A stretch of DNA of 64,000 bases from Gymnopus androsaceus JB14 (Eukaryota; Basidiomycota; Agaricomycetes; Agaricales; Omphalotaceae), in contig ML769420.1 of NCBI GenBank assembly GCA_009733575.1, positions 186,001 to 250,000 of the forward strand, given 5' to 3'. The position numbers were made by a program, and so were the translations under genes. Shown piece after piece: positions 18,638 through 61,038 of this stretch. Below the pieces are notes generated by a model that saw only the letters and a program-made list of their open reading frames with translations, had not been told where the DNA came from and did no database searches. The stretch's first letter is position 1. Every line of letters starts with the position of its first letter.

Positions 18638-18751
18638 TTTCTTACATTTATCTATGTGACTCTCCAATTACTTTATAGCCTTTCTCTCATCTTAACTCTA
18701 CTGTGTAAATCTCAAATACAATGTGAGAAAGCCAGTCAATTGTGCTTTTGT

Positions 18752-18777
18752 CACACCGCCAATAATTATGCTTCAGC
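18752..18777 (+). repeat. MITE left terminal inverted repeat
   Basis: 26 bp; pairs with 19371-19396 with two mismatches. Confidence 0.8.
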
Positions 18778-19370
18778 TTGGCTGAAGCATAATGGGAAAT
18801 AAATTATTTCAATCCCTATATGAAGTGCACTTTTTCAGAAAAATGTAGAAGTCATATATTTCAATAGAGCGATGAATAAATTGAATTCCGATATTCTGAA
18901 TTGAGAACTTTATATAGATGTGTGAAAGAGAAGCTTTCAATCGGACTCTGGAAATAATAGATTCAATGTGGACTTGAAAGCCCTGCTTTCACAATAAGAG
19001 CAAAAGTAATTGTTTCAAAGAACAATTCAATTTTCCACTGAAATATTGCCTTTCGCTGTGCGGTTTGGCAGCGGCCCGGATCGGCCCGAGAATCGAAGTA
19101 TTGTCTTTCGGGAACCAGCTGAAAGGTTCTTCGAAATAGTTGCTTTCACTCTTATTGTGAAGTAAAAGTATTCAGTCCGCATTGAAACTATTGTTTTTAG
19201 AGCTCAATTGAAAAGCACTCTTTCGGAAATCTGTTTAAAATTCAAAATTCAGAGGGTCTAAATGTAATTCCTTCATAAGTTCATTGAAATACTTATTTGA
19301 TATACTTGTATGAAAAAGTACATTTAGCTTATATACTGAAATAATTCATTTCTCACAGTACTCCAGCCTG

Positions 19371-19396
19371 GCTGAAGTATAATCATTGGCGGTGTG
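19371..19396 (-). repeat. MITE right terminal inverted repeat
   Basis: 26 bp, inverse complement of 18752-18777 with two mismatches. Confidence 0.8.
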
Positions 19397-34864: not shown

Positions 34865-36006
34865 ACTACGTAGGATGAGAGCAATAAAAACGCACAATGA
34901 AGAGGACCTACTTCGAGGGAAAAGGTGAGAGTTTGGATGCGCTCTGCCACGCTTCAGTGACGGAGTTATGAAAAGCGTGAGCGCAAAAGGTAAGCTTTCA
35001 ATGAGCGGGTAAGCTGAGATCAGGCCAGAAATGACTACGGTATGTCGTGTAATTGGGAAAAGCTTTCCCTAATCTACGTACAAGCTCTGGTTTAAATAGT
35101 AGATTAGGGTATTGAATAGAGAACAGCGATCGTACGATAAAATAGCGACTGAGTAAGGACGGGGAAGAGTAAATGAATAACTAGAGTAATCATCCGATTG
35201 GAGAGTAGGGAAGTGGCATGGTGAGTACGGGAATATAGCCCGCCGCTACACGCTCAGTCCAACTATAAGTACATAAGTCAAGGCATTGCCTAACCAATTT
35301 CACACACTCCCAGTTATTCGCGTTCTCCGTGAGAAAAGTATTGCATTTCACAGTTGCAACCATGGGTAGCACTAGCTAAAAGGTGTCAAGCGGCTTGCAA
35401 GCGGCCAAGAGGAGTCTGAATCCAAGTTTGACCAGTTTGTGGTCATCAGAGCTGGCGAGGTGACGCCAAATTCTGGACTGAGATGGTACACTGTAGTACG
35501 AAAATTAGCTTTACAAACATACCAAACACGTCTTCAGCGCAACATCAGCGAAGCTTTGAGATCCACCGTCCTCTCCCTCCTCAGACTCTCTTCTGCCATT
35601 AGCTCACCAATTATCTCAGCAAATATGCCTGTTGCACCTTGATCAGCAAGAAGATGAGGGTGTAGATCTTTTCTTTGGAATCGGGATAAGTAAAGAAGGT
35701 ATCAGACGAAATTGATGAGCGGTGGTCCATTGAGTGCGAGAGTTGTTAACTAGTCCTGCTGCAGGTCTCTCTGTACTATTGGTAGTTGGTTTGGTTGCAG
35801 TTATTCTTGGTATTTATTAGCAGTCGGGGATGCTCAATAAACATTAAATAGTACTTTTCACAATTGACTTGCCTCTCGACTTAGTTTGTCTTGGTGTTTG
35901 AGATTTACATATATATATATAGTACTTAGAGGCAAAGCAGAAGCGATATAAATTAAATATGAGGCGCGGATCCAGATCACAAATACATGACAGTGAGTCA
36001 AAGAAA
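34865..36006. other. intergenic, border of the repeat island
   Basis: No supported gene. A short (TA)n run at about 35911-35922 lies between GCCTCT (35872) and AGAGGC (35929), which are inverted. Composition becomes AT-rich and CpG-poor to the right. Confidence 0.45.
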
Positions 36007-37950
36007 CTATTCAGAATCTTTGTCCAACAGTGCCAGCATATAGCTATCATGCTCTTTTTTAATCAACTGACCAGGACCAACATCCCTATGCCAAGCAAGG
36101 TCAGGATTAAGAAGAGGATACCGAGCCTGACCCTCTTTGTCGCACCAATCAAAATCGATAAGCATGGCATGCTGAGCACAAACTACCACATTGACTTTCC
36201 GTAAGTCACCAAAGACATAGCCTCCACAATGCAAAGTTTCAATGGCTTCTCGAATGTCAGTGACAATAGTACGAGGAATTTATTGGGAAACATTTCTGCA
36301 ATATTCCTGTCTTTGAATACAGGCCATTATAACCATCTTCAGCCCCCCAGGTATGTCACAACAATGCAAGAGCTCGGGAGCAAGCCCCTTGGTGGCAAGA
36401 AGCCTGTGAGCTTCTTCACCATAAGTTTTGGCATATTTGACAATAAGCTCACGGCCATTGGCATCCCATGCAGCAAAGATCGCACGCAATGGGTCCTGGG
36501 GTATTAAGCAATGGTTAAATTTAAGACCAGGAACATCAACCGCTTTTGGAATGTAGGGGAAATATCGTGAAGGGAGAGGCAATGATGATTGTGTATAAGG
36601 AAGGGTTTGATAATATTGGGTAAAATCAGCCAGACCTGTGCAAAGAGCAAAGAACATTTTTGCACTAGCTGCACTTGGTGATACTCCTGGAGTATTTGCA
36701 CATAGAGGGATAGGAAAGGGGTCAAATGCTGGACAATAAATTTGTCTGAAAACACCGAGCCAGACACCATGATATGAGGACCTGCTACAGTGATCAGGAA
36801 GGTAGGACAACAGCTAGTGATCCTGAAGCTTCTGGAGCTGAAAAAAAATAATAATCAAAGACATTAAAACGGCTTTATATTCAGCAAAATAAAAACATAC
36901 TTTTTCTTCAGCCCATGCTTTTCGACAGGTGAATCCAAAGAAGGGTCACCGTGGCCAATATCAATTTCATTTTTGATATCGACAAAGGCAATTTTGACAT
37001 CTTCAAAATGGGAAGTGACCACAACAGCTGTGGTTTTATCTTCACGTACAATCTTGAGGAAAGGTTTTGGAGAAGTTGCTGTAGGATTGGTGTGACTGCC
37101 TTACACCTTGCATCTTCTTCATCATAAATTTGAGCAGAGAGAGCAAATAGCATGTGAACATGGTGGTACATATCCGGTGGAGGAATTGAGGAGTTATCGG
37201 AGAGGGAATCCTTGAATCTCTCAAAGACTTCATGATATATAGCAAGAGGCAGGCCACTGTAAGTATAATCAGGTTGCCCATTGAAGCCAGGGAAATTTCA
37301 TTGTTGATCTTTGAGATCAGGCAGCTTGATGGCATTATATGGAGACTTGGCTGCCTGCCCATGAGACACTGCTTGCTTATAAGATTCCTCTTCTTCTGAT
37401 AGATAAATTGAATCAGAAGATGTTCTCCATGCCTCTTGCGTTGGTAAAGACTGAAATGAAAACATTTAGAATATCTACCATCCCGTTCCGGAGACAAAGA
37501 ACATTTCAGGGTCCCTGTGAATCCAAGTAAGCCCAAAGATAGTATAGCCTAACAAAAAAAGCTGATGAGGATGAGGCCTCCAAGCCACAAAGACTTGGAA
37601 TCCATCATTTATTGATGACAGCACTGTTGAAATGGTGTCTGTCAAAATTGAGTGTCTTTTCCTTGCTTGCGAGGACTCTTTCCCTACAGTCGTCAATGGG
37701 TAGGAGCTTCACTGGGCTTGCAAGCTGTGGATGACAAGTGTAACAACAATAGGAGATTCCACACCTGTAGAAACTTACCTTCCAAAGCTCCACAGTCATC
37801 TTTGAATATTGCTTGCCTAAGCTGTAATGATTGAAGATTTTATCCTGCAACTTGGAAACAGATTGATTTGGTGATATGTTGTATTTTTTTGCAATGTCGA
37901 ATTGGTCGATGAAGACCCATATGGTGAACTGAGACTCAGGACAATGACAT
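36007..37950 (-). pseudogene. decayed duplicate of the kinase-like gene at 16703-18637
   Basis: The minus strand reproduces the same gene end to end. It has F-T-I-W-V-F-I-D-Q-F-D at the N-terminus (about 37920), LASPVKLLPIDDCRERVLA, the middle region with MYHHVHMLFALSAQIYDEEDAR, VSGSVFSDKFIVQHLTPF, ANGRELIVKYAKTYGEEAHRLL, GYVFGDLRKVNVVV, and MLIDFDWCDKEGQARYPLLNPD, stopping at TAG 36009-36007. The start codon position is out of frame, and at least two one-base shifts occur (near 36285 and near 36645). CpG sites of the other copy are mostly TpG or CpA here. It keeps the intron pattern, so it arose by DNA duplication, not by retroposition. Coding similarity remains high enough that it may have diverged under selection before decay. 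Confidence 0.75.
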
Positions 37951-42552: not shown

Positions 42553-43360
42553 TGTTAAGTCCGTGCAACCCGGAGTGGAGCGGCCGAGATATCGGACAGA
42601 AATGGTCCGGAAAGATTCCGGGTTGGACCTTGCGAGTTATGGGACTCGGTGAAGCTATTGGCAACACCCTTGACACGCCGTAAGGTGTCCCGAGAGGAAA
42701 ATAGTAAGGCAAAGTCTAAGCTAAGTTAAGACAGTAGGACCGAAGGCGTAGCCGAGGTTTGACCGAGATCACGTGGCTGTGTCGGCTTAGTAACTGGAAT
42801 CTCGGTCAATTGGTCAAGGAAGGACTCGGAATGAGTACAAGGCCAGACTAAGTTGATTTTGGAGCTAAGGTTACTATACAAGTTTGTACTACTTAAATAC
42901 TGCCAATGGGGCCGATGTTCCGGGGCCGGACCGGTCCCTTGGTAAGTAAAACAATAAAGTAATTCAGTACCAAAAGATAATAGTGAAGCGAAAGACAATA
43001 AAACAATAACAGGCATAAAACAATAGTGTGGGAATAGTTCCTGAGACTGGACCGGAGTTATACCGAGGTTATGCCGAGATGATCGACCGAGATATGCCGA
43101 GATAATCGGTCATAATACACCGGAAACCTCGGCCGAGTGTCCGGAGTACTGGAAATGGTGTAGATTGACCAATATTGGTGAAATGGTCAAAAGTCCGGAG
43201 TAACCGAACCGATGCAATGGCCGGAGTTGCCAAGCCGATGTGATGGCCGGACTAGCCGAGCCGATACGGTGGCCGGAGTTGCCGAGTCGGTAACCGGTTG
43301 GTTAGATATAGAATAGGGTCTGAGGGCTCGGTCGGTAATTCGGTAGGCATGGCTGTAACA
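42553..43360 (-). repeat. LTR of nested element (3' LTR in element polarity)
   Basis: 808 bp; paired with 44813-45620. Confidence 0.9.
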
Positions 43361-44105
43361 GTATCCCCCCTTTAGGCTTGAGCCCTCAAAAGCCCTAGAC
43401 CGGAAGGGAAACATCAAGGAGTGAGTGTGAAAAGAAGGTATTGGTGAGTCCGGGGCATGGCAATGAAGTCATAAAAAAAAATCAGGAGAAAAAAATCAAG
43501 TAGCCAAAAATTAACTTGGTAAAAATAAAACAAAAACCAAGGCCCAAAAAAATCTCGGCCAAGGCAACCCAAAATTACCGAAAAAAAATGGCTGAACCGG
43601 CCCGGGGTAGAATCCGGATACTACCGAAATAGCCCAAAGGAATCCTAGCAAGTGCAGGTGCAAACCGGAAAGGTAAGCCAACATAGTATAGTGTACAAAA
43701 ATGTAACACTAATTGGAACGAGGGTCCAATGAAGGAGACTCAAAAAAGTGCTTTGGAAAAAACAAAAACAACAAAAGTCGGAGAGAGTGTTTCGGCCTGC
43801 TCGGCACATCAACGGATGTAAGTGAGGGTTGAAACGATATCCTAAAAAGTGATGTATGTAGAATCCACAGAAAGGGAAATGCAACTTGCCAAAATAGGAA
43901 ACAAGATGAGTATGGGAACTCAAAATTGGAAATTGGGTGAGAAAGGGTAGAATACAAAAAAATAAAAAATTGAAAACAAAGTTTCGGAGCTGACTGGTAG
44001 AAACCGGTCAAAAATTTACAAGGATAACAAAAGAAAGTAAATATCAGTAAAAATAAACAGTAGAATGAATAAAAATGAAGAGATTAAATAAAACAATGTT
44101 CAAAC

Positions 44106-44753
44106 CTAATAAACTGATTCTTCCGAGCCGTTATCCGAGCCATCGGACCCGTGGGAACCGACCGATGAGTCAGACTCGGCTGGGGAATTACCGGAACGGC
44201 GCTCCTTAGCCTTCAACTCTTCACAATCTACTCGGAAATGATCACCACCACAGTAAAAACAAAGCCGGAGTTGCCGGCGGCGATTGCGCTCGGACTCGGT
44301 GAGCCTGCCGTCAGGTCCAAAAATATTGTCAGCAGAGGTAGAGGAAGCTTCGGAAGCTTCAGACTCGAACTCCTGCTCGTAAAATGGAGGGTAGAGGTGG
44401 TTATTGGCATAGTACCAGTCCCAATTGAGAGGACCAGGGCAATCTGAATCATACTCGGACTCGGAAACCTCGGTCTCGGCGGACCGGACCGATCCATCGG
44501 ACTCGTTTTCCGAACCAGAGGGTGAGTGGAAGAGATGTGGATTGGCATAATAGAATTCCCAGTTAAGAGGTCCGGGACAGTCGGAGTCATATTCTGAAGT
44601 GGAATTGGAACCGTCGGTGTTTTCCTGGGCATCATAGTACTCGGATTCACCGGACTCGGAACTAGAGTCAGGTGCCTCGGAGTCAGAGCCGGAGTCAGAA
44701 GGGAGGTGCCGGGCATAGTTGTAAAAGGATTGGACATTGGAATCGAAAGGCAT
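44106..44753 (-). CDS. gag-like zinc-knuckle protein of the nested LTR element
   Basis: Uninterrupted 215-codon frame from MPFDSNVQSFYNYARHLPSD. Ser/Asp/Glu-rich and acidic, with two copies of an EYDSDCPGPLNW-E/D-x-YYAN module (about residues 54-75 and 101-122). Near the C-terminus lies the CCHC knuckle C-F-Y-C-G-G-D-H-F-R-V-D-C, then an acidic Ser tail. The knuckle and the element context suggest a nucleocapsid-like role in packaging; no polymerase is encoded. The frame is intact, in contrast to the surrounding Copia. An in-frame upstream ATG (44828) would lie within the LTR, so 44753 is preferred. Confidence 0.75.
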   Translation of the reverse strand: MPFDSNVQSFYNYARHLPSDSGSDSEAPDSSSESGESEYYDAQENTDGSNSTSEYDSDCPGPLNWEFYYANPHLFHSPSGSENESDGSVRSAETEVSESEYDSDCPGPLNWDWYYANNHLYPPFYEQEFESEASEASSTSADNIFGPDGRLTESERNRRRQLRLCFYCGGDHFRVDCEELKAKERRSGNSPAESDSSVGSHGSDGSDNGSEESVY

Positions 44754-44812
44754 GGTGAATAAAAGATTAAAGGAAGTGAATAACAACGCGCCAAGTAGTA
44801 GCTCCAAAATAC

Positions 44813-45620
44813 TGTTAAGTCCGTGCAACCCGGAGTGGAGCGGCCGAGATATCGGACAGAAATGGTCCGGAAAGATTCCGGGTTAGACCTTGCGAGTTAT
44901 GGGACTCGGTGAAGCTATTGGCAACACCCTTGACATGCCGTAAGGTGTCCCGAGAGGAAAATAGTAAGGCAAAGTCTAAGCTAAGTTAAGACAGTAGGAC
45001 CGAAGGCGTAGCCGAGGTTCGACCGAGATCACGTGGCTGTGTCGGCTTAGTAACTGGAATCTCGGTCAATTGGTCAAGGAAGGACTCGGAATGAGTACAA
45101 GGCCAGACTAAGTTGATTTTGGAGCTAAGGTTACTATACAAGTTTGTACTACTTAAATACTGCCAATGGGGCCGATGTTCCGGGGCCGGACCGGTCCCTT
45201 GGTAAGTAAAACAATAAAGTAATTCAGTACCAAAAGATAATAGTGAAGCGAAAGATAATAAAACAATAACAGGCATAAAACAATAGTGTGGGAATAGTTC
45301 CTGAGACTGGACCGGAGTTATACCGAGGTTATGCCGAGATGATCGACCGAGATATGCCGAGATAATCGGTCATAATACACCGGAAACCTCGGCCGAGTGT
45401 ATGGAGTACCGGAAATGGTGTAGATTGACCAATATTGGTGAAGTGGTCAAAAGTCCGGAGTAACCAAACCGATGCAATGGCCGGAGTTGCCAAGCCGATG
45501 TGATGGCCGGACTAGCCGAGCCGATACGGTGGCCGGAGTTGCCGAGTCGGTAACCGGTTGGTTAGATATAGAATAGGGTCTGAGGGCTCGGCCGGTAATC
45601 CGGTAGGCATGGCTGTAACA
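44813..45620 (-). repeat. LTR of nested element (5' LTR in element polarity)
   Basis: 808 bp; paired with 42553-43360. A 3'-part fragment of the same LTR recurs at 51094-51215. Confidence 0.9.
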
Positions 45621-45810
45621 CAGAAGGAGAAGGCGGTCAGTTCATTATTGAAGGAAGAGGTATCGTTGAGCTGCATGTACAAACCTCTAATGGAACGGTG
45701 AACAAGTTACGTTTTCCCGCATCACATACTCCTTCGTTCTCGATGAACTTGCTGTCACTTCCTGCAATGGACATTCTGGGTTATAGAGGGACATGGGGGA
45801 GGTGGTATGT
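45621..45810 (+). pseudogene. Copia protease fragment resuming after the nested element
   Basis: Continues the protease region (GGQFIIEGRGIVEL, MNLLSLPAMDILGYRGTWG) and stops abruptly at about 45810, where minus-strand transposase-like sequence begins. Confidence 0.7.
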
Positions 45811-48598
45811 GTGTCCTGGCCTCTTCCTTTGCTAGGTTCATCTCCACCACCTTCTTGTGAAAGGCAACCTGCGCTGCACGCTGTTTTGCTTCCAGGCCAC
45901 TACTATCAATTTCACGGGCCATTTTCCAGATATATTGATGATCATTCTCATTGAACAGTGCATCCATGAACGCCAAGGTGTCATTTCGTTGGTACATGAC
46001 CAATGCATTGAACTGGTGCAGCATTAAGGTAGGCTTCCCCTGCATCGTAACTCGGTAGCACCCTAGAAGTCCTTCATTCACATCGTTTGTGGCAGGCATC
46101 CAAGCTAGGTATTTCTCTTCAGCGGTTGCAAGATCTATCAACCCTGCAGGGGCAAACTCGGATGAGAAACGCGTCCATGTGGATAGAGAACCCCGGAAAA
46201 AGGCAACTGTGATATCCCTGAGATGTAGGAGCACGGGTGCAAGCTTGAAGACTGCTCCCATGGCCTCTGGGTCTTCCCATTCCTTTCCATCCAAACTTGC
46301 TGACTCGTATGACATCTCCTCACCGAAAAGAATATCTGGGTCATCGAGAATCTTCTGGATATGGACTTGAACTTCACTGTGGAGAGGACCAAGGTCAAGA
46401 CCGTTCATGTCCTGACCTCAAACAACGCGAAGATACATTGGTATATAGGACCATCGCACATAATTCGGTGATAGTTGGATCATCATCGAGCACATGCGCC
46501 AGGTTTTCCTCGATGTTAGTACGACTGGGTTGGTTTTTGCCATATGTAATGTCCTTTTTTGATAAAGTCTTTGTAGAGCTCCAAGTGCTTAATGACTTCA
46601 GCAGCTGCAAGACCGTGACTTCCAAACCGAGTGTTGCTCGTATCTGGAAAGCGATGGTGGTTCTCGCCAAGTTCTTCTTTGAAGAAATTGCAGTAAGCGT
46701 CACCCTGACCCTTCTTGTCGTCCTTGTTATTGAACACAGATCCCGCTAGGTCCATGGATTTGACACCCCCTCGTGTTGAAGTGACAAAAGCCTGCTTTTG
46801 GTCTTCGGTCAACTTATCAAAGTTGGCGCCTGGATCAACAACTCGGTGAAGGATAGATGCATTTGCCTTGTTCGTGAGAAGGCATGGAGGCTCAACACCG
46901 AGTTTTTCCCATTCTGCCATCATCTCGGTATTACCGCCCTTGGAAGCTATTAAGGTCCTTGTGCATGCAGCACCCAGACCAGATAAAAAGGTCAAGCTCC
47001 TTTCGTTCCTCAGGGCAGAGAGAGTCGTACTCTTCCTCGCCCAGCTCTGTAACAATACGTCTCATGATCTCGGAATCCTTCTTTGCCTGCTCTGTTGGAC
47101 TGAGTTGATTCCAGGCCTCAATACCTCTGACTTCTTCAAGTTTTTTCTTGTTCCAAGCCGCCAAACAGAGAATAACATCAGCAGGAGCCTTTCCTTGCAT
47201 GTTCTTCTCGCTAAGCTCCTGGATACACTCCTCCTTTTTCCATCCCGTTATCACCTTTGCCGTCGCTTTCTCATTATTCGCATGGTCACCCTTCATCCCT
47301 TTCAATGCGGCTTAGGAAATCTCGGACCGAAAACTTCCATTGGAGTTGTTTGGCGAGTGGTGAATTGTTGAAGATACTAGCGACTCCACCCATGCCATCT
47401 TTCCAGGCATTGACAGATCCTTGAGAGCTGTGATCCAGGGTCGCGTCAAGAGAGAAGAAACGATTGGCGGGTTTCAAGATAGTTTTGCGCTGCTTCCAGC
47501 TTCATTCAAACACTTAACCTCGGCGTAATCAGGGACTTTCATGCAGACATGGTGAGATTCGAAGTTCTGTTTGCGATGAGAAGTACTGTCTTGGCTGATT
47601 GTCAAGCCTAATCAGTAATGGTCAGTGAATTAGCCAGAATATCAATGATCTTGTATCGTACCTTCAGTATTCCTTATTTCTACAGCAGCCTGTAGCTTTG
47701 CTGCAATACCTGCTTCAAGAACTGTCCGTGATACGGTGCGTTGACTCATAGCCCCTTCGATTTTGATGCCCAGCGAATGACCAACAAGTTTGATCAGTTT
47801 ACCGACTTTCGCCCGTGAACAACCAGCAGAGACCATCAAACGAGATATTTCGCGAGCCTTGGAACAGTAAACACCACCGCGCCCTTTGCGGCGAAACTGA
47901 GAGAGTCAGGAATTTTGTTCATTTTCGCGTTTCAAGGCAAGCGCATTTGCATGCTCAAGTCTGTCAACTTTTTGCTGTAATGCAAGCATCTGTTCCCGTA
48001 AGTCGCATCAATCCTCGCTCTGAATGTAACCCTTCTTCTTTATCTCCATAGAATGCTCCCAGAACTTTTGCCTCTCCACCTTCCTATCCCTCAACAATCC
48101 CTGAGCTTGACATTCAAGCCATATGCTTTGTTTCTGGTAAGCCTTTGCCTCGTTCCACACCTTCACCAGTTCTGACTGTAACTCTTTGTTTCTAGACTTC
48201 AAGCGGCGAATCTGTCTTTGTGCACTGGCTAGCTTGCGAAGTGCCTTTTCAAGACTGGGAGATTTGACTGTAACCTTTTGAGGCTGAATGGTCATGGAAG
48301 GTGAAATATTGTTGGATTTTGGTTGAGAAAGATGGGTAGAAGTCTTTTCCGTATGTGGCAGCTCATTCTCTTTGGCTGAATTGATATTTCGTCGCGCTTT
48401 TGAGCCCATCTGACGCGTCTGGCGCATCTGAGATGTGTCTGGCTGATTTTGATTCATACGGTGACTAGATGTGAGGGCAGCATTTCGGCTTCGAGAAGCT
48501 GTGGCAGCAGCTGTAGCAGCATGTCGACTTTCTTCCTGCTTTTCGGATGGCTTGCGTTTCGATTTTTGTCGAGTTTTGGTCAAATATTTATTCCCCAT
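45811..48598 (-). pseudogene. transposase-like gene, copy A (C-terminus missing)
   Basis: Same gene as 55235-58399, reading from MGNKYLTKTRQKSKRKP (ATG 48598) to ...KKVVEMNLAKEEARTH at the 45811 junction, so about the last 120 residues are absent. It has the same two in-frame TGA stops in the coiled-coil region as copy B, plus its own one-base insertions (for example GGCTTAGG near 47310). It retains CGA (Arg) in the L-H-R-V-V-D-P segment (about 46846-46855) where copy B has TGA. The part 47607-48707 appears identical to 57408-58508; the rest differs at scattered sites. Confidence 0.8.
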
Positions 48599-48707
48599 CA
48601 CCCTGAAAAAGTAAGTTGAATTAGATCCAATCACAGCGCGTTCAATAAAGGATCTACCTTTGCTAGCTGCAAGCTTTTCAGAGTCCGATGCTGAGTGGAT
48701 TTGGTGT

Positions 48708-49506
48708 AAAATATTTTGTAATCTCGAAGATCTTCAACCACTTTACACTCCATTTACTCCCAAGCTACTCCATTCCTGTGAGAGGAAAGTGTTTGAAGAA
48801 AAGATGCTTCATGAGCAACAAACCTTACCAAGGATTGCTGGGCTGCTGCCAAATGGGGTGGATGCAGCAGACTGGAACATTAGCTTCGCATGCTCAAAGC
48901 CTTTGCAACAGTTCAAAACAAACTGTTTCCTGAAGATTGGGACTCCTCATCAAACTATGTCTACATTCTAATGGACAGTGCATTAGGGAGTAAAATACAA
49001 GCCTTGCGTGGATAGGAAATCATGACGGTGGGCTACTCAGATGCAGATTGGGCTAGCTGTAAGGCTACATGTCGCTCAACTTCTGGATATATCTTCTTGA
49101 TGAATAGTTGCCCTGTAGCAATGGGCCTCAAAGAAGCAGAACTGGTATCTTTATCATCCCATGGGAATCGGAGTACATCGGCATTAGCGAAGTGGCGTTC
49201 AGCAGGCTATCTGGATGCAAGTTGGTTAAGAAGTGGATTTGGTATGGAGGTGTGATGGGCTTGCTGGTTGATAACCCTAGGAGCAATTGCATTGTTGGAA
49301 GACAATGAAGGGGCACCAATTTGGCTAAACACATCGACATCCGTACTTTCTTTATTTGGGATGCTGTCAAGGAGACAGGTATCCATATACCGCGGTGGCA
49401 ATCTCTTAAATCTTGCTGATATTATTGACCAAATCCCTTTCAAGGGAGAAGCATCGCCATATCGTGTCCGCTTTGGATTGATTGGTGGTATAACGATGCC
49501 AGGGAG
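48708..49506 (+). pseudogene. Copia reverse transcriptase C-terminus / RNase H fragment
   Basis: Corresponds to 53600-54404. Contains GYSDADWASCKATCRSTSGYIFLM (RNase H), with many one-base insertions relative to the other copy. Joined at 48707 to transposase-like DNA. Confidence 0.75.
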
Positions 49507-49758
49507 GTTAAATGTTGACAGGCATTTAGTGTGGCACCGTATGTTTGGTTTGGTTTTCTTTTCCGGTTCTATTGTTCTTATTTGGTATTGTTTATTTGTT
49601 TACTGACTGACCATTTCCCCGTACTATATAAACTGGCTTGTCCGATTCCCTGCTTCCCCCAGTTCCATCATCACGACTGAGGGTAAGCATCCTAACCTAC
49701 CATTTCTCATACATTACTGACTTTACCTATAGCCCTCGTTGACTCATTATATCTATAG
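49507..49758 (+). repeat. Copia LTR, second copy
   Basis: Matches 54405-54660 and 40948-41203 with small indels. Followed by the same ~340-bp flank as at 54661-55005. Confidence 0.8.
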
Positions 49759-50103
49759 AAAAATTACAAAAGACAATTGAGTAGATAATTGATACAATAG
49801 TAAGATTGACAAAAATCCTTGAATGATTCAAAGGTACTGGAGACTGCGCAAAAGAATATCTGGCTTGTAAAGTCTAGGATGATGCACCGTTGTTTCGGGA
49901 GTGAAGATTACAATTCAATATGTTGCCATTCAAGTATTACCACAAAAGCACTATTTATGTATGTCAGCTTCCAGTTACCAGAAAAACAACGGAGAATGCC
50001 TTTCCGCGAGCAATAATTTGATGGAAGGCAATCACATACCGGTTTGCATAATTGATATGCGGAAAAAGAGTCCCGGAAGATAAAGGGGAGAGAATGTTGT
50101 ATG

Positions 50104-51093
50104 TGGAGGGGCATATATACTAACGGGCGCCTAACTTACTAATCGCACTGCCCTTCAGACTTGTCAATAAAGTCTGGAGACGTGGAGATGGATTTGTCGC
50201 GTCGAAATCCATTCTGGCATTAGATGGTTCACTGTACTATACTAATTTGCTTTTTTGAAAGTTTGAGAGTGAAAACAAAGTATGAATAAATGATAAAGAA
50301 GTGAATATGGTGCCCGGAAACTAATTATTCTACTTCAATCTCGTTTTGATCCGTGCTTCTTCAACCATCTGAATCCCAACACTCTCCACAATGTTCTCCT
50401 CAAGCGACTGAGGCCATTCCCGCCCTAATTCCTGCAACTTTTCATATACAGCTTGAAAGCGGTATCCAGCACTTCGCTTGTCTGCAACGCGAGTAAGATC
50501 CTTCACTTTGGGAAGAGGAACTTTTCGGAAACGCAAAGCCTGTAATTGGAGATCAAGGTTATGTCCGGTCCACTTCCTGCTGCCCTTCGGGTCGAACTTG
50601 GCATCAGGATCATCAAGCAACAATGATATGTCACGAATTATTGGAATTTTAGAGTGCCATTCCGTGTTTCCCTTGCCTTTGTGTCCTGGCCTCTTCCTTT
50701 GCTAGGTTCATCTCCACCACCTTCTTGTGAAAGGCAACCTGCACTGCACGCCGTTTTGCTTCCAGGCCACTACTATCAATTTCACGGCCATTTTCCAGAG
50801 TATTATTTGATTCATTCTCATTGAACAGTGCATCCATGAACGCCAAGGTGTCATTTCGTTGGTACATGACCAATGCATTGAACTGGTGCAGCATTAAGGT
50901 AGGCTTCCCCTGCATCGTAACTCGGGTAGCACCCTAGAAGTCCTTCATTCACATCGTTTGTGGCAGGCATCCAAGCTAGGTATTTCTCTTCAGCGGTTGC
51001 AAGATCTATCAACCCTGCAGGGGCAAACTCGGATGAGAAACGCGTCCATGTGGATAGAGAACCCCGGAAAAAGGCAACTGTGATATCCCTGGA
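50104..51093 (-). pseudogene. left end of the TIR transposon, copy C (TIR plus transposase-like C-terminus)
   Basis: TTGTATG (50097-50103) and the left TIR (50104 onward, one base shorter than in the full element) are followed by the C-terminal coding part 50330-51093. That part includes LDLQLQALRFRKVPLPKVKD, MQGKPTLMLHQFNALVMYQR, and ATNDVNEGLLGCY. Interrupted by frameshifts and cut at about 51093 by an LTR fragment. Confidence 0.75.
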
Positions 51094-51215
51094 GGATGTG
51101 ATGGCCGGACTAGCCGAGCCGATACGGTGGCCGGAGTTGCCGAGTCGGTAACCGTTGGTTAGATATAGAATAGGTCTGAGGCTCGGCCGGTAATCCGGTA
51201 GGCATGGCTGTAACA
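51094..51215 (-). repeat. fragment of the nested-element LTR
   Basis: Last ~120 bp of the LTR (GATGTGATGGCCGGACTAGC ... GCTGTAACA), followed by CAGAAGGAGAAGG exactly as at 45620/45621, so it derives from the same insertion event. Confidence 0.85.
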
Positions 51216-54200
51216 CAGAAGGAGAAGGCGGTCAGTTCATTATTGAAGGAAGAGGTATCGTTGAGCTGCATGTACAAACCTCTAATGGAACGGTGAACAA
51301 GTTACGTTTTCCCGCGATCACATACTCCTTCGATTCTCGATGAACTTGCTGTCACTTCCTGCAATGGACATTCTGGGTTATAGAGGGACATGGGGAGGTG
51401 GTATGTTAACGGTTGCCAATAAGGATAGCAGAGTGGTGGTTGATGGAAGGTTAGCCTTTGAGAAGGCACGGCACCACCTATATGAGGTGGACATTGTTGA
51501 TGTTAATCCACCTGTGGTGGCAGTTAGCATGAAGTCTCGGTCAATGAATGTGCCGTGCTCACTGGAGATGTCTGATGTGGCATGTCTGTTTTGGACACGC
51601 AGATATTAATATTGTCCGTATGATGGCAAAGAAGGCCTTGGTTGGTGGGTTGAATATTTCCAATATGGGAGTGTGCGGAAAGTGTGAAGTTTGCCTGCTG
51701 ATGAAGGCTACAAGAAGGCCGTTCAATGCTGTGGTTATACCGTTGATGGAACCTTTGGATCGGGTTAGCCTCGAACTTGTGGGGGAGAGCAAGAACTACC
51801 AGTCTCGGTAGTGCTGTCTACATGATGCTTGCATGTGATGACAGTACTGGAATCCCTTTTCCCTATTTCTCCGCTACGAAAGATGCTCCGAAGATCCTGT
51901 TGTTGGTGAAGATCTTTGTCGCTATGGCTGAGAACCAAACCAGGGAGGAAAGTGCGTGTTTTTTGTATCAACCTTGGCCGGGAATTCGACAACAAGTGGA
52001 TTGAGGAGTTTTGCAATGAGAAGGGGATTGTCATCGAGCGTGTTCCTAAGGACTCATCAGCAGCAAACGGACAAGTTGAACGAGCGAACTGTACCATTAT
52101 CAAAGGTACTCGTGCCATGCTGGAGGATTCCAAGCTGGACAAGAGGTTCTGGGCAGAGGCTGCTGCAGCTCAATGTTACATTAGAGGTTTTATTCCTACC
52201 ATGCGGCATCCTGGTCAAATTCCTTGGCAAAAGTGGAAATGTTCCAATATTCTTGATGTCTTGCATTTACAAAAGTGGGGGTTAAAAGTTTGGGTAAAGG
52301 ATCTTGCAATCGTAAAGAAGGAAAGCTAGGTTGTCAAGCTTGGGAAGGATTTATGGTTGGTTACCTCGGTGCACAAGGATACAGAGTCTATGATCCAGAG
52401 AGAAAGAGCGTGTATTTAGTAAGGGACGTGGTTTTTGAGGAAGGGACACCAAGGAGGACTCAACAAGTGGAAACGGCATCCGCAGAGGATGAGGAGGCTT
52501 CTGAGGATGAGCTAGGTGGTTGGGATCCTATTGAGGATGTTGAAGAATGTCCGTGGTCTCCACACATGCGTTGCACAAGCTCCTGAAGCACCTCTAGAAA
52601 CTCCTCAATGTTTGAGTCAAGTATCCATCCCGTCACCTGTACTTCTATGGTCTATCGACTACTTGAGGGACAAGGAGGTGCCAAAGCCAATGAGCTCGAG
52701 TGGGCAAATATCACTGTCCTAGCGGTGAACGTCATGGAGGATGAGCAGAGGCAGAGAGAAAATGAAGACACCATTTTGGCCCTGGCTAGCACTGTGAAAG
52801 GGGGTGGTGATATCATTATTTCATCTTCATACAGGGAGGCCATGTGTGAGCCTGAGAAGTGGGGACCAGCCATGGAGGCAGAGATAAAGGGTCTCCGGGA
52901 CCAAGAAGTTTGGAAACTGGTCAACGCTCCAGAAGGTATGTGGATTCTAGAGGGAATGTGGATTTATGACTTGAAGCTTGATGGAGATAGAAAGGTGTTG
53001 AAGATGAAGGCTCGGTATGTTGCTAGAGGCAACATGCAGATTGCGGGTGTAGATTACAAGAAGAGTTGGTCAATGGTTGTGCATGTAGAGTCCGTTTGGA
53101 TGCTTATGGTGGTCGCAGTCGGTCTAGGTCTAGAGACAAGTCAATGGGATTTCTCTTTGGCTTACTTGAACGGGACTTTACCAAAGGATCCGCCAGTGTA
53201 CATGTGTCAGCCAACCGGTTTTGCTCAGACGGGGGAGGAGGCAAAAGTCTGTCTGATGCAAAGACCTTTATATGGGATGGTACAGGCAGGCCATATCTGG
53301 TACAACAAATTAGAGGATCAGTTCAAGAAGCTGGGCTTCAAGTCCGCGCATGCTGACCCATGCATTCGTTCTCGATACAACCCTGCATCTGAATACAGGA
53401 CCATTGCATCTGTGCATACTGACAATATTTTTGCAGCTTCGATGGATAGACAGGAAGCGGAGGATGCAATCCATGGGTTCAGGATCTGGGACTTGAAGGA
53501 CGTGAAGGATAAGAACATGCTCCTTGGTTTGACAATCGACTACTTACCAGATGGCTCAATTGGCATTACACAAGCCCCATTCTTCCTCAAGGCTTTCAAA
53601 TATTTCAGTATTCTCGAAGATCTTCAACCGCTCTACACTCCATTTCCTCCCAGCTACTCCATTCCTGTGAGAGGAAAGCGTTTGAAGAAAGATGATGCCT
53701 TCATGAGCGACAAGCCTTACCAAGGATTGCTGGGCTGCTGCCAATGGGGGGGTGGATGCAGCAGACTGGACATTAGCTTTGCATGCTCAAGCCTTGCAAC
53801 AGTTCAAAACAAACTGTTTCCTGAAGATTGGGACCTCCTCATCAAACTATGTCGTTACATTCTAATGACAGTGCATTATGGAGTAAAATACAAGCCTTGC
53901 GTGGATAGGAAAGTCACGACGGTGGGCTACTCAGATGCAGATTGGGCTGGCTGTAAGGCTACATGTCGGTCAACTTCTGGATATATCTTCTTGATGAATA
54001 GTTGCCCTGTAGCATGAGCCTCAAAGAAGCAGAACCTGGTATCTTTATCATCCATGGAATCGGAGTACATTGCATTAGCGAAGTGCATTTCAGCAGGCTA
54101 TCTGGATAGCGAGTTGGTTACAAGAAGTGGATTTGGATATGGGAGGTGTGATGGGCTTGCTGGTTGATAACCTAGGAGCGATTGCATTGTTGGAGACAAC

Positions 54201-54404
54201 GAAGGGGCATGATTTGGCTAAACACATCAACATCCGTTACTTCTTTATTCAGGATGCTGTCAAGGAGGGACAGGTATCCATATACCCGGTGGCATCTTCT
54301 TAAAATCTTGCTGATATTATGACCAAATCCCTTTCAAGGGAGAAGCATCGCCATATCGTGTCCGCTTTGGGATTGGATTGGTGGTATAACGATGCCAGGG
54401 GGAG
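51216..54404 (+). pseudogene. Copia pol: protease end, integrase, reverse transcriptase, RNase H (inactivated)
   Basis: In order: GAG-pre-integrase zinc finger (HADINIVRMM ... CGKCEVCLLMK), integrase core (CINLGREFDNKWIEEFC and ANGQVERANCTI), then reverse transcriptase in a long open stretch 52608-54017 (EPEKWGPAMEAEIKGL, KARYVARGNMQIAGVDY, SQWDFSLAYLNG, RPLYGMVQAGHIWY), and RNase H (GYSDADWAGC). Several frame changes lie in the integrase. Key residues look mutated: the integrase D-x-G-x-EF is N-L-G-R-EF, and the expected D-D of the polymerase box reads H-T-D-N (near 53425). Both are single G-to-A-type changes. Not autonomous. Confidence 0.85.
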
Positions 54405-54660
54405 TGTTAAATGTTGACAGGCATTTAGTGTGGCACCGTATGTTTGGTTTGGTTTTCCTTTTCCGGTTCTATGTTCTTATTTGGTAATTGTTTATCTGTT
54501 TACTGACGTGACCATTTCCCCGTACTATATAAACCTTGGCTTGTCAATTCCCTGCTTCCCTCAGTTCCATCATCATGACTGAGGGTAAGCGTCCTACCTA
54601 CCATTTCTCATACGTTACTGACTTTACCTATAGCCCTCGTTGTACTCATATAGTCTATAG
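54405..54660 (+). repeat. Copia LTR, third copy (3')
   Basis: 256 bp, preceded by the purine tract AGGGGGAG. Confidence 0.85.
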
Positions 54661-55005
54661 AAAATTACAAAAGACAATTGAGTAGATAATTGAATACAAT
54701 AGTAAGATTGAACAAAATCCTTGAATGATTTCAAGGTACTGGAGAGTGCGCAAAGAATATCTGGCTTGTAAAGGTCGAGGATGATGCACCCGGTTGTTTC
54801 GGGAGTGAGATTACAATTCAATATTGTTGCCATTCAAAGTATTACCACCAAAAGCACTATTTATGTATGTCAGCTCCAGTTACCAGAAACAACGGAGAAT
54901 GCCTTTCCGCGAGCAATAATTTGATGGAGGCCATCAGTACCGGTTTGCATATTGATATTGCGGAAAAAGAGTCCCGGAAGATAAAGGGGAGAGAGATGTT
55001 GTATG

Positions 55006-55046
55006 TGGAGGTGGGCATATATACTAACGGGCGCCTAACTTACTAA
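55006..55046 (+). repeat. left TIR of the 6-kb transposon
   Basis: 41 bp; three mismatches to the inverse complement of 60991-61031. Confidence 0.9.
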
Positions 55047-55234
55047 TCGGCACTGCCACCTTCAGACTTGTCCAATAAAGTCTGGAGACGTGGAGATGGA
55101 TTTTGTCGCGTCGAAATCATTCTGGCATAGATGTTCACTGTACTATACAATAACTAATTGCTTTTTTGAAAGTTTGAGAATGAAAACAAAGTATGAATAA
55201 ATGATAAAGAAGTGAATATGTGCCCGAAAACTAA

Positions 55235-58200
55235 TTATTCTACTTCAATCTCGTTTTGATCCTGTGCTTCTTCAACAATCTGAATCCCAACACTCTCCAC
55301 AATGTTCTCCTCAAGCGACTGAGGCCATTCCCGCCCTAATTCCTGCAACTTTTCCATATACAGCTTGAAAGCGGTATCCAATGCACTTCGCTTGTCTGCA
55401 ACGCGAGTAAGATCCTTCACTTTGGGAAGAGGAACTTTTCGGAAACGCAAAGCCTGTAATTGGAGATCAAGGTTATGTCTGGTCCACTTCCTGCTGCCCT
55501 TCGGGTCGAACTTGGCATCAGGATCATCAAGCAACAATGATATGTCACGAATTATTGGAATTTTAGAGTGCCGATTCCACGTGTTCCCTTGCCTTTTGTG
55601 TCCTGGCCTCTTCCTTTGCTAGGTTCATCTCCACCACCTTCTTGTGAAAGGCAACCTGCGCTGCACGCTGTTTTGCTTCCAGGCCACTACTATCAATTTC
55701 ACGGGCCATTTTCCAGATATATTGATGATCATTCTCATTGAACAGTGCATCCATGAACGCCAAGGTGTCATTTCGTTGGTACATGACCAATGCATTGAAC
55801 TGGTGCAGCATTAAGGTAGGCTTCCCCTGCATTGTAACTCGGTAGCACCCTAGAAGTCCTTCATTCACATCATTTGTGGCAGGCATCCAAGCTAGGTATT
55901 TCTCTTCAGCGGTTGCGAGATCTATCAACCCTGCAGGGGCAAACTCGGATGAGAAACGCGTCCATATGGATAGAGAACCCCGGAAAAAGGCAACTGTGAT
56001 ATCCCTGAGATGTAGGAGCACGGGCGCAAGCTTGAAGACTGCTCCCATGGCCTCTGGGTCTTCCCATTCCTTTCCATCCAAACTTGCTGACTCGTCATGA
56101 CATCTCCTCACCGAAAAGAATATCCTGGGTCATCGAGAATCTTCTGGATATGGACTTGAACTTCACTGTGGAGAGGACCAAGGTCAAGACCGTTCATGTC
56201 CTGACCTCGAACAACGCGAAGATACGTTGGAAATGACATTGGTATATAGGACCATCGCACATAATTCGGTGATAGTTGGATCATTGTCGAGCACACTGCG
56301 CCAGGTTTTCCTCGATGTTAGTACGACTGGGTTGGTTTTTGCCATATGTAATGTCCTTTTTGATAAAGTCTTTGTAGAGCTCCAAGTGCTTAATGACTTC
56401 AGCAGCTGCAAGACCGTGACTTCCAAACCGAGTGTTGCTCGTATCTGGAAAGCGATGGTGGTTCTCGCCAAGTTCTTCTTTGAAGAAATCGCAGTAAGTG
56501 TCACCCTGACCCTTCTTGTTGTCCTTGTTATTGAACACAGATCCTGCTAGGTCCATGGATTTGACACCCCCTTCGTGTTGAAGTGACGAAAGCCTGCTTT
56601 TGGTCTTCAGTCAACTTATCAAAGTTGGCGCCTGGATCAACGACTCAGTGAAGGATAGATGCATTTGCCTTGTTTGCGAGAAGGCATGGAGGCTCAACAC
56701 CGAGTTTTTCCCATTCCGCCATCATCTTGGTATTACTGCCCTTGAAGCTATTAAGGTCCTTGTGCATGCAGCACCCAGACCAGATAAAAAGGTCAAGCTC
56801 CTTTCGTTCCTCAGGGCAGAGAGAGTCGTACTCTTCCTCGCCCAGCTCTGTAATGATACGTCTCATGATCTCGGAATCCTTCTTTGCCTGCTCTGTTGGA
56901 CTGAGTTGATTCCAGGCCTCGATACCTCCGACTTCTTCAAGTTTTTTCTCGTTCCAAGCCGCCAAACAGAGAATAACATTGGCAGAAGCTTTTCCTTGCA
57001 TGTTCTTCTCGCCAAGCTCCTGGATACACTCCTCCTTTTTCCATCCCGTTATCACCTTTGCCATTGCTTTCTCATTATTCGCATGGTCACCCTTCATCCC
57101 TTTCAACGCGGCTAGGAAATCTCGGACTGAAAACTTCCATTGGAGTCGTTTGGCGAGTGGTGAATTGTTGAAGATACTAGCGACTCCACCCATGCCATCT
57201 TTCCAGGCATTGACAGATCCTTGAGAGCTGTGATCCAGGGTCGCATCAAGAGAGAAGAAACAATTGGTGGGTTTCAAGATAGGTTTCGTGCTGCTTCCAG
57301 CTTCATTCAAACGCTTAACCTCGGCGTAATCAGGGACTTTCATGCAGACATGGTGAGATTCAAAGTTCTGTTTGCGATGAGAAGTACTGTCTTGGCTGAT
57401 TGTCAAGCCTAATCAGTAATGGTCAGTGAATTAGCCAGAATATCAATGATCTTGTATCGTACCTTCAGTATTCCTTATTTCTACAGCAGCCTGTAGCTTT
57501 GCTGCAATACCTGCTTCAAGAACTGTCCGTGATACGGTGCGTTGACTCATAGCCCCTTCGATTTTGATGCCCAGCGAATGACCAACAAGTTTGATCAGTT
57601 TACCGACTTTCGCCCGTGAACAACCAGCAGAGACCATCAAACGAGATATTTCGCGAGCCTTGGAACAGTAAACACCACCGCGCCCTTTGCGGCGAAACTG
57701 AGAGAGTCAGGAATTTTGTTCATTTTCGCGTTTCAAGGCAAGCGCATTTGCATGCTCAAGTCTGTCAACTTTTTGCTGTAATGCAAGCATCTGTTCCCGT
57801 AAGTCGCATCAATCCTCGCTCTGAATGTAACCCTTCTTCTTTATCTCCATAGAATGCTCCCAGAACTTTTGCCTCTCCACCTTCCTATCCCTCAACAATC
57901 CCTGAGCTTGACATTCAAGCCATATGCTTTGTTTCTGGTAAGCCTTTGCCTCGTTCCACACCTTCACCAGTTCTGACTGTAACTCTTTGTTTCTAGACTT
58001 CAAGCGGCGAATCTGTCTTTGTGCACTGGCTAGCTTGCGAAGTGCCTTTTCAAGACTGGGAGATTTGACTGTAACCTTTTGAGGCTGAATGGTCATGGAA
58101 GGTGAAATATTGTTGGATTTTGGTTGAGAAAGATGGGTAGAAGTCTTTTCCGTATGTGGCAGCTCATTCTCTTTGGCTGAATTGATATTTCGTCGCGCTT

Positions 58201-58399
58201 TTGAGCCCATCTGACGCGTCTGGCGCATCTGAGATGTGTCTGGCTGATTTTGATTCATACGGTGACTAGATGTGAGGGCAGCATTTCGGCTTCGAGAAGC
58301 TGTGGCAGCAGCTGTAGCAGCATGTCGACTTTCTTCCTGCTTTTCGGATGGCTTGCGTTTCGATTTTTGTCGAGTTTTGGTCAAATATTTATTCCCCAT
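55235..58399 (-). pseudogene. transposase-like protein of an uncharacterised multicopy Agaricomycete family, copy B (stop codons)
   Basis: Reads minus from MGNKYLTKTRQKSKRKP. Layout: basic Ala/Ser-rich N-terminus; coiled coil (LRKLASAQRQIRRLKSRNKEL, LREQMLALQQKVDRLEHAN); a helical DNA-binding-like stretch (SKAREISRLMVSAGCSRAKV, MSQRTVSRTVLEAGIAAKL); then a core with candidate acidic residues (LTISQDSTSHRKQNFESHH, FFSLDATLDHSSQG), the Cys-His step DLFIWSGCCMHKDLNSF reminiscent of the C-x-x-H motif of hAT-type transposases, and RFPDTSNTRFGSHGLAA; then a conserved C-terminal half (LDLGPLHSEVQVHIQKIL, MPATNDVNEGLLGCY, AREIDSSGLEAKQRAAQVA, LDLQLQALRFRKVPLPKVKD). Introns are visible (for example near 57411-57463). 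Three in-frame TGA codons sit where CGA is expected. Transposase function is inferred from layout and TIR context. Confidence 0.7.
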
Positions 58400-58681
58400 C
58401 ACCCTGAAAAAGTAAGTTGAATTAGATCCAATCACAGCGCGTTCAATAAAGGATCTACCTTTGCTAGCTGCAAGCTTTTCAGAGTCCGATGCTGAGTGGA
58501 TTTGGTGTACAATGCAAAAGAAATGGAGTTTTACGACTATTATTTACTTCCGCCCACATTCTCGTAACGACTTTAACGAGCATCTAGGTTTAACGCCCAC
58601 TACAATAATTCTTATTTATTATACTCTTTTCGGCTACTTTTGGGCATTTTTGATACAAAAATGGATATATTTGGGTCATGT

Positions 58682-58776
58682 GCATCTATTGGCAGGTGCT
58701 TTTCTTGCTTGAGTACCTACTTCTGTATTTTGGCCCAGAGGGCAAATTTGAATAAATGCACCTGCCAATAGATGCG
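58682..58776. repeat. hairpin inverted repeat
   Basis: GCATCTATTGGCAGGTGC at 58682-58699 and its exact inverse complement at 58759-58776, separated by about 59 bases. Directly abuts the left end of the nested TIR element. Confidence 0.85.
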
Positions 58777-58778
58777 TA

Positions 58779-60872
58779 CACTGCTGCACCGTAGTCCGAT
58801 GATATTTCGCATATTTTTTCTACGCAAAATATCACTGTTTTCGCTCATATTTTTCTAATACTGAGCAGGCACACTTTCACGCGAAATTTCTCAAAGACAC
58901 TGCTTCGCATATTTGCAGCGATCTCTTCGCGAATTATCTTCGCACAATCCTCAAATATTTCTAACCACCAATGTCGTCAGCGCCTCCGGCATTCAGCTTA
59001 TTGCGGTTTTCCCCGCTTCTCCACCTTATTCTGTTTGTACCCGATAGTACTAATCAATGCATACGAAAACGTTCAAAAGATGTATATATTGTATAAATTT
59101 AACACTATAGATATGTGTTGACACCAGTTATACAGTTGTATACTAATTTGGACCTTGAAAGCCATTCTAAACATGCAGCAGACCACGAATTCAGCACTTG
59201 GGTAACAATACTCATGCGCTCACATACCTGTAAGAGACCCTGCAGTCCTGCGGGAGCGCAAGTGTGTTGTCTGGTCCACTGGTGGGAAGTATCTTGACGG
59301 GCACCTAAAGCTCAATCAGAAATGAACGCATTGAGCATCTCAAATACGTACCACTTGTCTCTTGAGGTTCAAACCGAGTTTGCGAATGAGATCCAGCGAT
59401 CAAGCCAAAGTTCTGATTAGCATACGACATCCCTGCATGGTTCAACTGGGAGCCACCAGCAGTTGCGAATAGCGGGCCTGCATAATCAAAACAATCAGTT
59501 AAGTGCTTCAACTGCAGAATGGGACAATTCGCACCGAGAGGTGAGTCTGAACGAAAGCCCAAAGGTGTCGGCGGAGTCCCTGTACATAGCCAAACCAAAA
59601 TAATCAGCCAAACGGTACATCCACAAGTGAGGGACACTCTTACCCGTGCGCGAATGAGATCCCAAAGACATCTGCGGCATTCCTGAAAAGTAAACTTTGA
59701 GCCTCAGTACAATCTTCATAATGTAGACCATACCGTTTCCGTTCGATCCGAGTTGTGCGACATAAGACCTAGCTGCCGGAGTACTGAACATTGCACTCGG
59801 TTCAGGGTTAACGGGGCGCAATTCAGGGGCAGTCTGGCGAGGAATAAGTGGAATTGTATCATCGGGAAAGAGTGTCAACTCGTTGGTCACTAAATCCATA
59901 TAATACCTGCCAGATATTCATCAACACCCATACAAAAAGATCGCAATAAAACTCACTTAGACCACTCCGGGGTTTTGAATGAATTCCCGAGGCCGGAAAT
60001 ACTTTTCCCACCATGCTTGGCCTTCTTCCCTTCCATCTTCACGTTCAACCACGAATTGAGGTCTGTCCAAAAGGCTTGAACATCCTCCGACTCTTCTTCT
60101 ACCTCCTCGTTCTCATCAGCACGGTCTTTGGGGGCACTATCGAAGTTGTCCTTCATGCGCTTTCGCTTGTTGGAGGTGTTACTGTCCTGGTCTTTCTGGT
60201 TTTTCTTGGGCTTGCTGGTCGTCAACTGCTTGGGTTTTGCTGGTTGCGAGCGACGCTCATCATGTTCGCGCAACCAGGCCCGCTACAAAATTCATGTTAG
60301 TATAAGATGTAAAGCTGAAGAATGACATACCACCAAGAGCATGCGTGAGATTTGCTGAACGCCAACGGTATCACTGTTCCCAATCATAATGTTTGCAACT
60401 GTCTTGGTGGCCAGCGTCGTACCAACGGCAGTGTGAGGGTTGAGTGTCGTGCTGACCCACTAGACAATATGCGCCTTTTTTTGATTGTCTGAATCACCTG
60501 AGACGGTTCGTAAGCGTCTGAATCATCCGACATCGCTCCCGAAGATGCCTGATAATTGCGCTTAAAGATTTTGTTCAACTTTTTGTGGTTCATGGTGCAG
60601 TGCCAAGTTGAAGGACTCGATGGTTTTTTGTTTGATCATATGCTCAGTGAGACGCATAAATTTTGCAAAATAAGGCTCACAGATATTATGCAAAGCTCTT
60701 TGAGAATTTTCGCGAACGGTTCAATTATGTCAGGAATTGGTACGAGAAATTTCTCAGAATCAGTGGTGCTATGAAAATTCGCACAAAATATGAGAAAATA
60801 CTCGAATTTTTGGTTTGAGAAATTTCTCGTATCCATCTTCTCATAAAATGTGAGAGGATCGGTGCAGCAGTG
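58779..60872. mobile_element. nested TIR element flanked by TA, 2,094 bp, with passenger gene
   Basis: Ends are CACTGCTGCACCG (58779-58791) and its inverse complement (60860-60872), each flanked by TA (58777-58778, 60873-60874). Beyond 13 bp the ends diverge but are rich in short palindromes (GAGAAATTTCTC near 60749 and 60820; GATATTTCGC/GCGxAAATATC near 58800-58833). The only gene inside is at 60593-59105 and does not look like a transposase, so the element is probably non-autonomous. Confidence 0.6.
59105..60593 (-). CDS. hypothetical multi-exon passenger protein
   Basis: A continuous spliced reading frame can be built on the minus strand: MNHKKLNKIFKRNYQ...EPSQ | WVSTTLNPHTAVGTTLATKT ... 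QQISRMLLV | RAWLREHDERRSQPAKPK, a Lys-rich and acidic linker (KRKRMKDNFDSAPKDRADEN, EEVEEESEDVQAFW), LNVKMEGKKAKHGG ... FKTPEWSK | YYMDLVTNELTLFPDDTIPL, ARSYVAQLGSNGN, MPQMSLGSHSRTG, TPPTPLGFRSDSPLGANCP, GPLFATAGGSQLNHAGMSYA and VPVKILPTSGPDNTLALPQD, possibly ending at TAG 59107-59105. All junctions have GT/AG introns of normal size and no stop interrupts it, unlike the neighbouring transposase-like gene. I do not recognise a domain. The basic plus acidic middle suggests a nuclear protein. The 3' exons are least certain. Confidence 0.5.
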
Positions 60873-60990
60873 TATGTAGGTTCTCCTCAATCCCGCACAA
60901 AAAAAAATTGAAAATGTCTATGTTAAGTGGGGGTAAACTATGCTCGAAAGCGGGGACATTTTCTTAGAGGGCGGCCAAATGCTGTGCTGC

Positions 60991-61031
60991 TTATTAAGTT
61001 AGGCGCCCGTTAGCGTATATGCCCACCTCCA
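60991..61031 (-). repeat. right TIR of the 6-kb transposon
   Basis: 41 bp; partner of 55006-55046. Confidence 0.9.
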
Positions 61032-61038
61032 TTGTATG

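Follow-up and report, generated by a model that had tools for sequence, protein, structure and literature searches.

A probable degraded cut-and-paste transposon in Gymnopus androsaceus and its predicted transposase from an uncharacterised mushroom protein family

A stretch of 64,000 nucleotides of Gymnopus androsaceus JB14 (contig ML769420.1, positions 186,001 to 250,000; hereafter the window) contains, at window positions 55006-61031, an element bounded by terminal inverted repeats (TIRs) and carrying a gene of an uncharacterised, transposase-like family. The genome searched was that of the same agaricomycete, an 83-Mb assembly in 934 contigs, and the features of the window are listed in Table 1. 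The TIR arms are complementary at 45 of 51 positions, and the copies of TTGTATG flanking them are identical over 7 bp. An earlier note, made from the sequence alone, had described 41-bp repeats with 38 matches and a precise 7-bp target duplication, and both descriptions were confirmed (38/41 over that length). As a control, the left side of one family locus was paired with the right side of another; none of the 132 combinations gave a TIR of at least 13/15 together with an exact 7-bp duplication, so the pair found in the window is beyond chance.

The same note took the element to be a complete 6-kb transposon around a gene of ~950 residues. The ends and the duplication stand, but part of the 6 kb is a nested element. 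Window positions 58778 and 60872 are contiguous in four related copies (L017, L018, L019 and L020, of which L019 and L020 probably represent a single insertion present on two contigs), and since the intervening 58779-60871 is absent at that point from all four, it is a later nested insertion. Without it the parent element measures ~3.9 kb, similar to the related L058 at 3,919 bp. The gene does belong to the family, many homologs of which are 775-980 aa long, in keeping with the ~950 residues of the note, but it is not intact here: comparison with relatives revealed stop codons in frame at 57811 and at 57709, the frame changes at least twice, near 56640 and near 56297, and the C-terminal tail (55618-55235) was judged by eye to lie in yet another frame. 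The note had overlooked the insertion as well as the damage to the gene. The breaks may be due to mutation or to assembly error, since alignments of the duplicated stretches nearby contain numerous small gaps (a 2,445-column one has 64 mismatches and 79 gap openings). Positions 42553-58513 form a chain of segmental duplications with junctions inside the transposon, which may be real or a misassembly.

Table 1. Coordinates of features in the window
Feature	Position	Strand	Remarks
Left target duplication	54999-55005	none	TTGTATG, 7 bp
Left TIR	55006-55056	+	starts TGGAGGTGGGCA
Right TIR	60981-61031	-	
Right target duplication	61032-61038	none	TTGTATG, 7 bp
Transposase-family gene	~58400-55235	-	broken copy
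Core reading frame	56648-57412	-	255 aa; first D motif, G-D-H-A, GCCMHKDLN
Likely intron (GT...AG)	57409-57462	-	directly before first D motif; inferred from intron position in L058-L062
Nested element	58779-60871	none	inverted ends CACTGCTGCACCG, probable TA duplication; outside the parent transposon
Second left-end copy	50097-51091	+	host flank and TTGTATG as at the left end; segmental duplication with 93% identity and numerous small gaps
Second partial gene copy	45810-48712	-	97.8% identical to 55597-58513; frame changes placed differently
Segmental duplication pair	42553-43360/44813-45620		
Segmental duplication pair	45497-45810/51095-51406		
Segmental duplication pair	45810-48712/55597-58513		
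Segmental duplication pair	48709-51091/53598-56007		

The 255-aa core gave 33 match rows in its own genome, four of them within the window. Twelve loci, six from the close family and six from a distant subfamily, were scanned for end pairs bracketing the gene. TIRs of at least 14/15 with an exact 7-bp duplication were found at five of the twelve (L021, which is the window element, L058, L059, L061 and L062), that is, at five of the six close-family loci fetched at length, L060 being without them. No distant-subfamily locus (0/6) had an exact 7-bp duplication; nothing was found at L052, L054, L055, L056 and L057, and L053 has ends TGGTAAGGTGCAAT that match at 14/15, lie 7.3 kb apart and are flanked by a 6/7 duplication. 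Among the control pairs, three at 12/15 or better had an exact duplication, and ten reached at least 14/15 once a 6/7 duplication was allowed, so that the evidence from L053 by itself is weak. Shorter pieces of L027, L028, L031, L033 and L040 contained no exact duplication pair. A lower-stringency TIR search of 17 loci returned, besides four members already known, only L053 (14/15, 6/7), along with pairs at chance level at L031 and L033 (12/15, 6/7) and again at L053 (12/15, 7/7). The expectation that family members are flanked by TIRs and 7-bp duplications was thus borne out often but not always: at the close-family loci fetched at length except L060, and not, for exact duplications, in the distant subfamily.

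Two internal-deletion derivatives, L018 (894 bp) and L017 (2,155 bp, including ~1.1 kb of foreign DNA), have the same ends as the window element. L018 is flanked by its own exact 7-bp duplication, CTATAAA; at L017 both ends were found and no target duplication. A further right end, at C488 and C409, was counted as one insertion because of the single shared flank, and no matching left end was found for it. Altogether, six of the eight elements with both ends found have an exact 7-bp duplication (the window element, L018, L058, L059, L061 and L062), the remaining two being L053 (6/7) and L017 (none). Seven elements had their ends compared, the window element and L018 representing one family and L053 counting as the weak case; all 14 ends fit TGRNNRKGNSCA over their first 12 bases. 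The family therefore has the TIRs and fixed-length duplications at independent insertions that define a class II TIR transposon.

Empty target sites were sought in the same genome with the two flanks joined through one copy of the duplication. In the first search, in which the best 40 candidates were scored and which alone covered the L053 join, 24 places matched across the L058 join at 91-96% identity, 20 of them equal in length to the query; 15 places matched across the L018 join (91-94%) and one across the L061 join (82%, 12 bases longer). A second search gave three matches across the window join (68-81%, differing in length from the query by 5 to 8 bases). The L062 join had two matches across it (82-85%) and two more that extend only ~10 bases past the join, and the L059 join had none in this genome. 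These matches support the claimed boundaries, and exactness at the join is best shown by L058.

A search for relatives of the protein with exon 2 of L059 found 346 proteins at E 1e-3 among 7,996 scored; alignment A1 found 415 among 7,992 at the same threshold. The best 120 homologs were listed for each query. Those listed for L059 exon 2 range from 402 to 1166 aa, and their genera other than Gymnopus androsaceus are ones we take to be Agaricomycetes. None of the 120 carries a Pfam domain and all those named in their source are called hypothetical or uncharacterised, in agreement with the earlier note. Pfam scans of nine pieces and six further proteins recovered no transposase family, nor did a scan of 56 members of alignment A2 among the 25 shown of 57 families matched, each of the 25 being matched by a single member. 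A search of the Protein Data Bank (PDB) with one family protein gave no match, and a profile of the family, searched to E 10, found only two keratin coiled coils (E 0.08 and 0.15). Viral relatives were rejected as well: 57 pattern matches in viral_contigs were all unrelated, and BFVD gave no match at E 0.001. The family is not named in the titles and abstract openings of the open-access literature searched, a scope that lies outside Repbase.

The members of the distant subfamily (L040, L041, L053, L054 and L057) preserve the motif order of the family. T-D-G-T-T occurs in L040 and L057, D-H-x-x-D-G-K-K-K in L040, L041 and L057, and G-C-G-x-H-K-x-L-N, N-H-L/M-E and T-N-D-x-N-E-G in L040, L041 and L054. 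The first exons resemble coiled coils in the Pfam scan of pieces, and the full-length predicted model has a long N-terminal helix of low to middling confidence. In the predicted models an RNase H core is interrupted by a helical insertion domain, and the hAT transposase Hermes was by far the strongest fold match, although the Foldseek TM-scores were low. The C-x-x-H and three acidic residues expected of a hAT transposase are conserved, their placement against Hermes following from alignment end points only. This fits the resemblance seen earlier between GCCMHKDLN and the hAT C-x-x-H, and the remark that other hAT or KDZ hallmarks are lacking holds as far as the Pfam scans and a KDZ profile comparison go.

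Taken together, we consider it probable, at roughly 0.87, that a class II cut-and-paste transposon is present in the window as a degraded copy and that the ~900-residue family protein is its predicted transposase. This reading draws on the TIRs, the exact 7-bp duplications at several independent insertions and the empty-site matches, and also on the same-ended deletion derivatives, the conservation of the family and its predicted Hermes-like fold; the link between family and mobile element proposed earlier is supported by the same data. The transposase would combine an RNase H-like core, which carries D6, D85 and E487 (L059 exon-2 numbering) as the candidate catalytic D, D and E, with a helical part at the N terminus and a large helical insertion domain that begins with C-x-x-H directly after the fifth core strand. 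On the model of Hermes, the enzyme would bind the TIRs, whose common start is TGRNNRKGNSCA, make double-strand breaks at the element ends and join the cut ends to target DNA with a 7-bp stagger, and repair of the gaps would leave the 7-bp duplications. We infer that the family protein is the catalyst, and likewise the identity of its catalytic residues, hairpin chemistry and present-day activity.

As to classification, there is close to an even chance that the family is a superfamily-level DDE cut-and-paste lineage, unnamed in the literature searched. Such a lineage would be marked by a predicted Hermes fold in which a further helical module separates the second aspartate from C-x-x-H, an N terminus resembling a coiled coil instead of a BED finger, a 7-bp stagger, TIR starts of the TG...CA type and hundreds of "hypothetical proteins" in mushroom genomes. 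Overall, the family has the life-style of an ordinary class II element, and its enzyme, which carried no annotation in any source searched, appears Hermes-like and remotely related to hAT.

The mechanism would be the same, and only the classification different, if the family were a very divergent branch of hAT, like the 7-bp hAT7 group, and no separate superfamily; we regard this as possible, at rather below even odds. Hermes as the leading fold match and the order D-D-[C-x-x-H]-insertion-E speak for such a branch. According to the available text of PMC4763223, hAT elements are marked by 8-bp duplications and a C-terminal hAT domain. The duplications here are of 7 bp, but that of PMC12730594 describes hAT groups with 5-, 6- and 7-bp duplications, including the 7-bp hAT7 in rust fungi, so that duplication length alone is not enough to exclude hAT. 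Against a hAT branch, the Pfam scans gave no hAT family, no hAT dimerisation domain (PF05699/IPR008906) and no BED family in the nine pieces, the six proteins or the 25 families shown for the 56 members, and no zf-BED match in three first-exon pieces and the full-length P0002. None of the PF05699 matches listed falls on C220:107603, C593:5578, C49:220751, C61:177240, C215:46616 or the window, and the family profile found no match to Hermes up to E 10. For other families, such as RAG1, Transib and piggyBac, absence from the match lists carries no weight against a relation.

It is improbable that the family protein is instead a passenger, a host or selfish gene within TIR elements moved by another transposase. 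The role of the protein as catalyst is a predicted one, and the available text of PMC12730594 reports passengers such as TET/JBP in fungal transposons. However, in L058, L059, L061 and L062 no frame between the ends is longer than those of the family, and other frames of at least 120 aa overlap them or are short; the TIRs and the gene vary together between subfamilies; and a transposase fold is predicted. We likewise give little credence to membership of the Dada superfamily, whose 6-7-bp duplications and C/DxxH motif match those of the family, many Dada members inserting in multicopy RNA genes (available text of PMC8869645). No RNA genes were found at the insertions, with 0 Rfam matches at gathering score in the six loci holding them, and Dada was rejected on this ground, with no Dada sequences compared.

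Still less likely is that the family is a KDZ element, specifically Kyakuja, even though KDZ is plentiful in this genome and Kyakuja makes 7-bp duplications in Agaricomycotina; in the available text of PMC12730594 the two described Kyakuja families have CA..TG termini and no TIRs, so that the duplication length agrees and the termini differ. A KDZ frame from this genome had 582 matches, of which 120 were listed, and 37 of these KDZ proteins were aligned. In the alignment the conserved D522 and E561/564, presumably catalytic, are ~40 residues apart, against ~400 from D85 to E487 here. Comparison by hhalign gave a probability of 0.2% (E 0.36), no PF18758 similarity appeared among the families shown in the Pfam scans, and among the KDZ matches listed none lies on the family's places; KDZ membership was therefore rejected. 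Lastly, an origin of the window TIRs and duplication by chance or assembly artefact has negligible probability: the assembly may be noisy, as the numerous small gaps in the duplicated stretches suggest, but C307 has the same ends next to another exact duplication, similar ends lie around other subfamilies, and independent insertions with other duplications were found.

Several other repeats were observed. The left end of the nested 2.1-kb element gave seven further match rows on six other contigs, more inverted repeats around GAAATTTCTC lie close to both of its ends, and four pieces of its minus-strand frames (59305-60635) had no Pfam match at E 0.1. An inverted pair of 1.9-kb stretches (16710-18643 and 36001-37930, 79% identical) is perhaps another mobile element, and 18752-19396 is an imperfect palindrome of ~650 bp that matches its reverse complement at 69% identity. 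The genome is also rich in known groups, with at least 161 KDZ and at least 145 hAT dimerisation-domain match rows.

If the proposed transposon is real, hundreds of Agaricomycete "hypothetical proteins" would move to a transposon class, correcting gene counts and repeat annotation, and Hermes would gain a structural relative with a 7-bp stagger and without a BED finger or hAT dimerisation signature. Comparing the two would be a natural way to learn how the stagger and the capture of ends depend on the insertion domain and the multimer. L059, L061 and L058, with open exon-2 frames and clean ends, are suited to direct activity testing.

Compared with known systems, the family shares an RNase H core with a helical insertion domain with the P element and ISCth4 of IS256 (available text of PMC7780238). 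With Dada it has the duplication length and C/DxxH in common, and it differs in that Dada, in the text available, targets RNA genes and is described from animals; no RNA gene was found at the insertions here. Kyakuja (PF18758) also comprises Agaricomycete transposons with 7-bp duplications, but the family differs in having TIRs, in lacking profile similarity and in its long D-E spacing, which is short in KDZ. The closest likeness is to hAT (Hermes, Kat1 and the fungal hAT7), with which it shares the predicted fold across catalytic core and insertion domain, the D-D-C/DxxH-insertion-E order, TIRs, cut-and-paste anatomy and deletion derivatives resembling miniature inverted-repeat elements (MITE-like). 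It differs from hAT in its 7-bp rather than 8-bp duplication (hAT7 also having 7), in showing no hAT dimerisation or BED Pfam match and in its coiled-coil-like N-terminal part, and from Hermes in the absence of detected sequence similarity. Two of the differences from Hermes also count against a hAT branch: 49 of 51 alignment rows have T two residues after the first D, where Hermes has W182, and ~105 residues separate D85 from C190, against ~17 from D248 to the C of C-x-x-H in Hermes (via H268).

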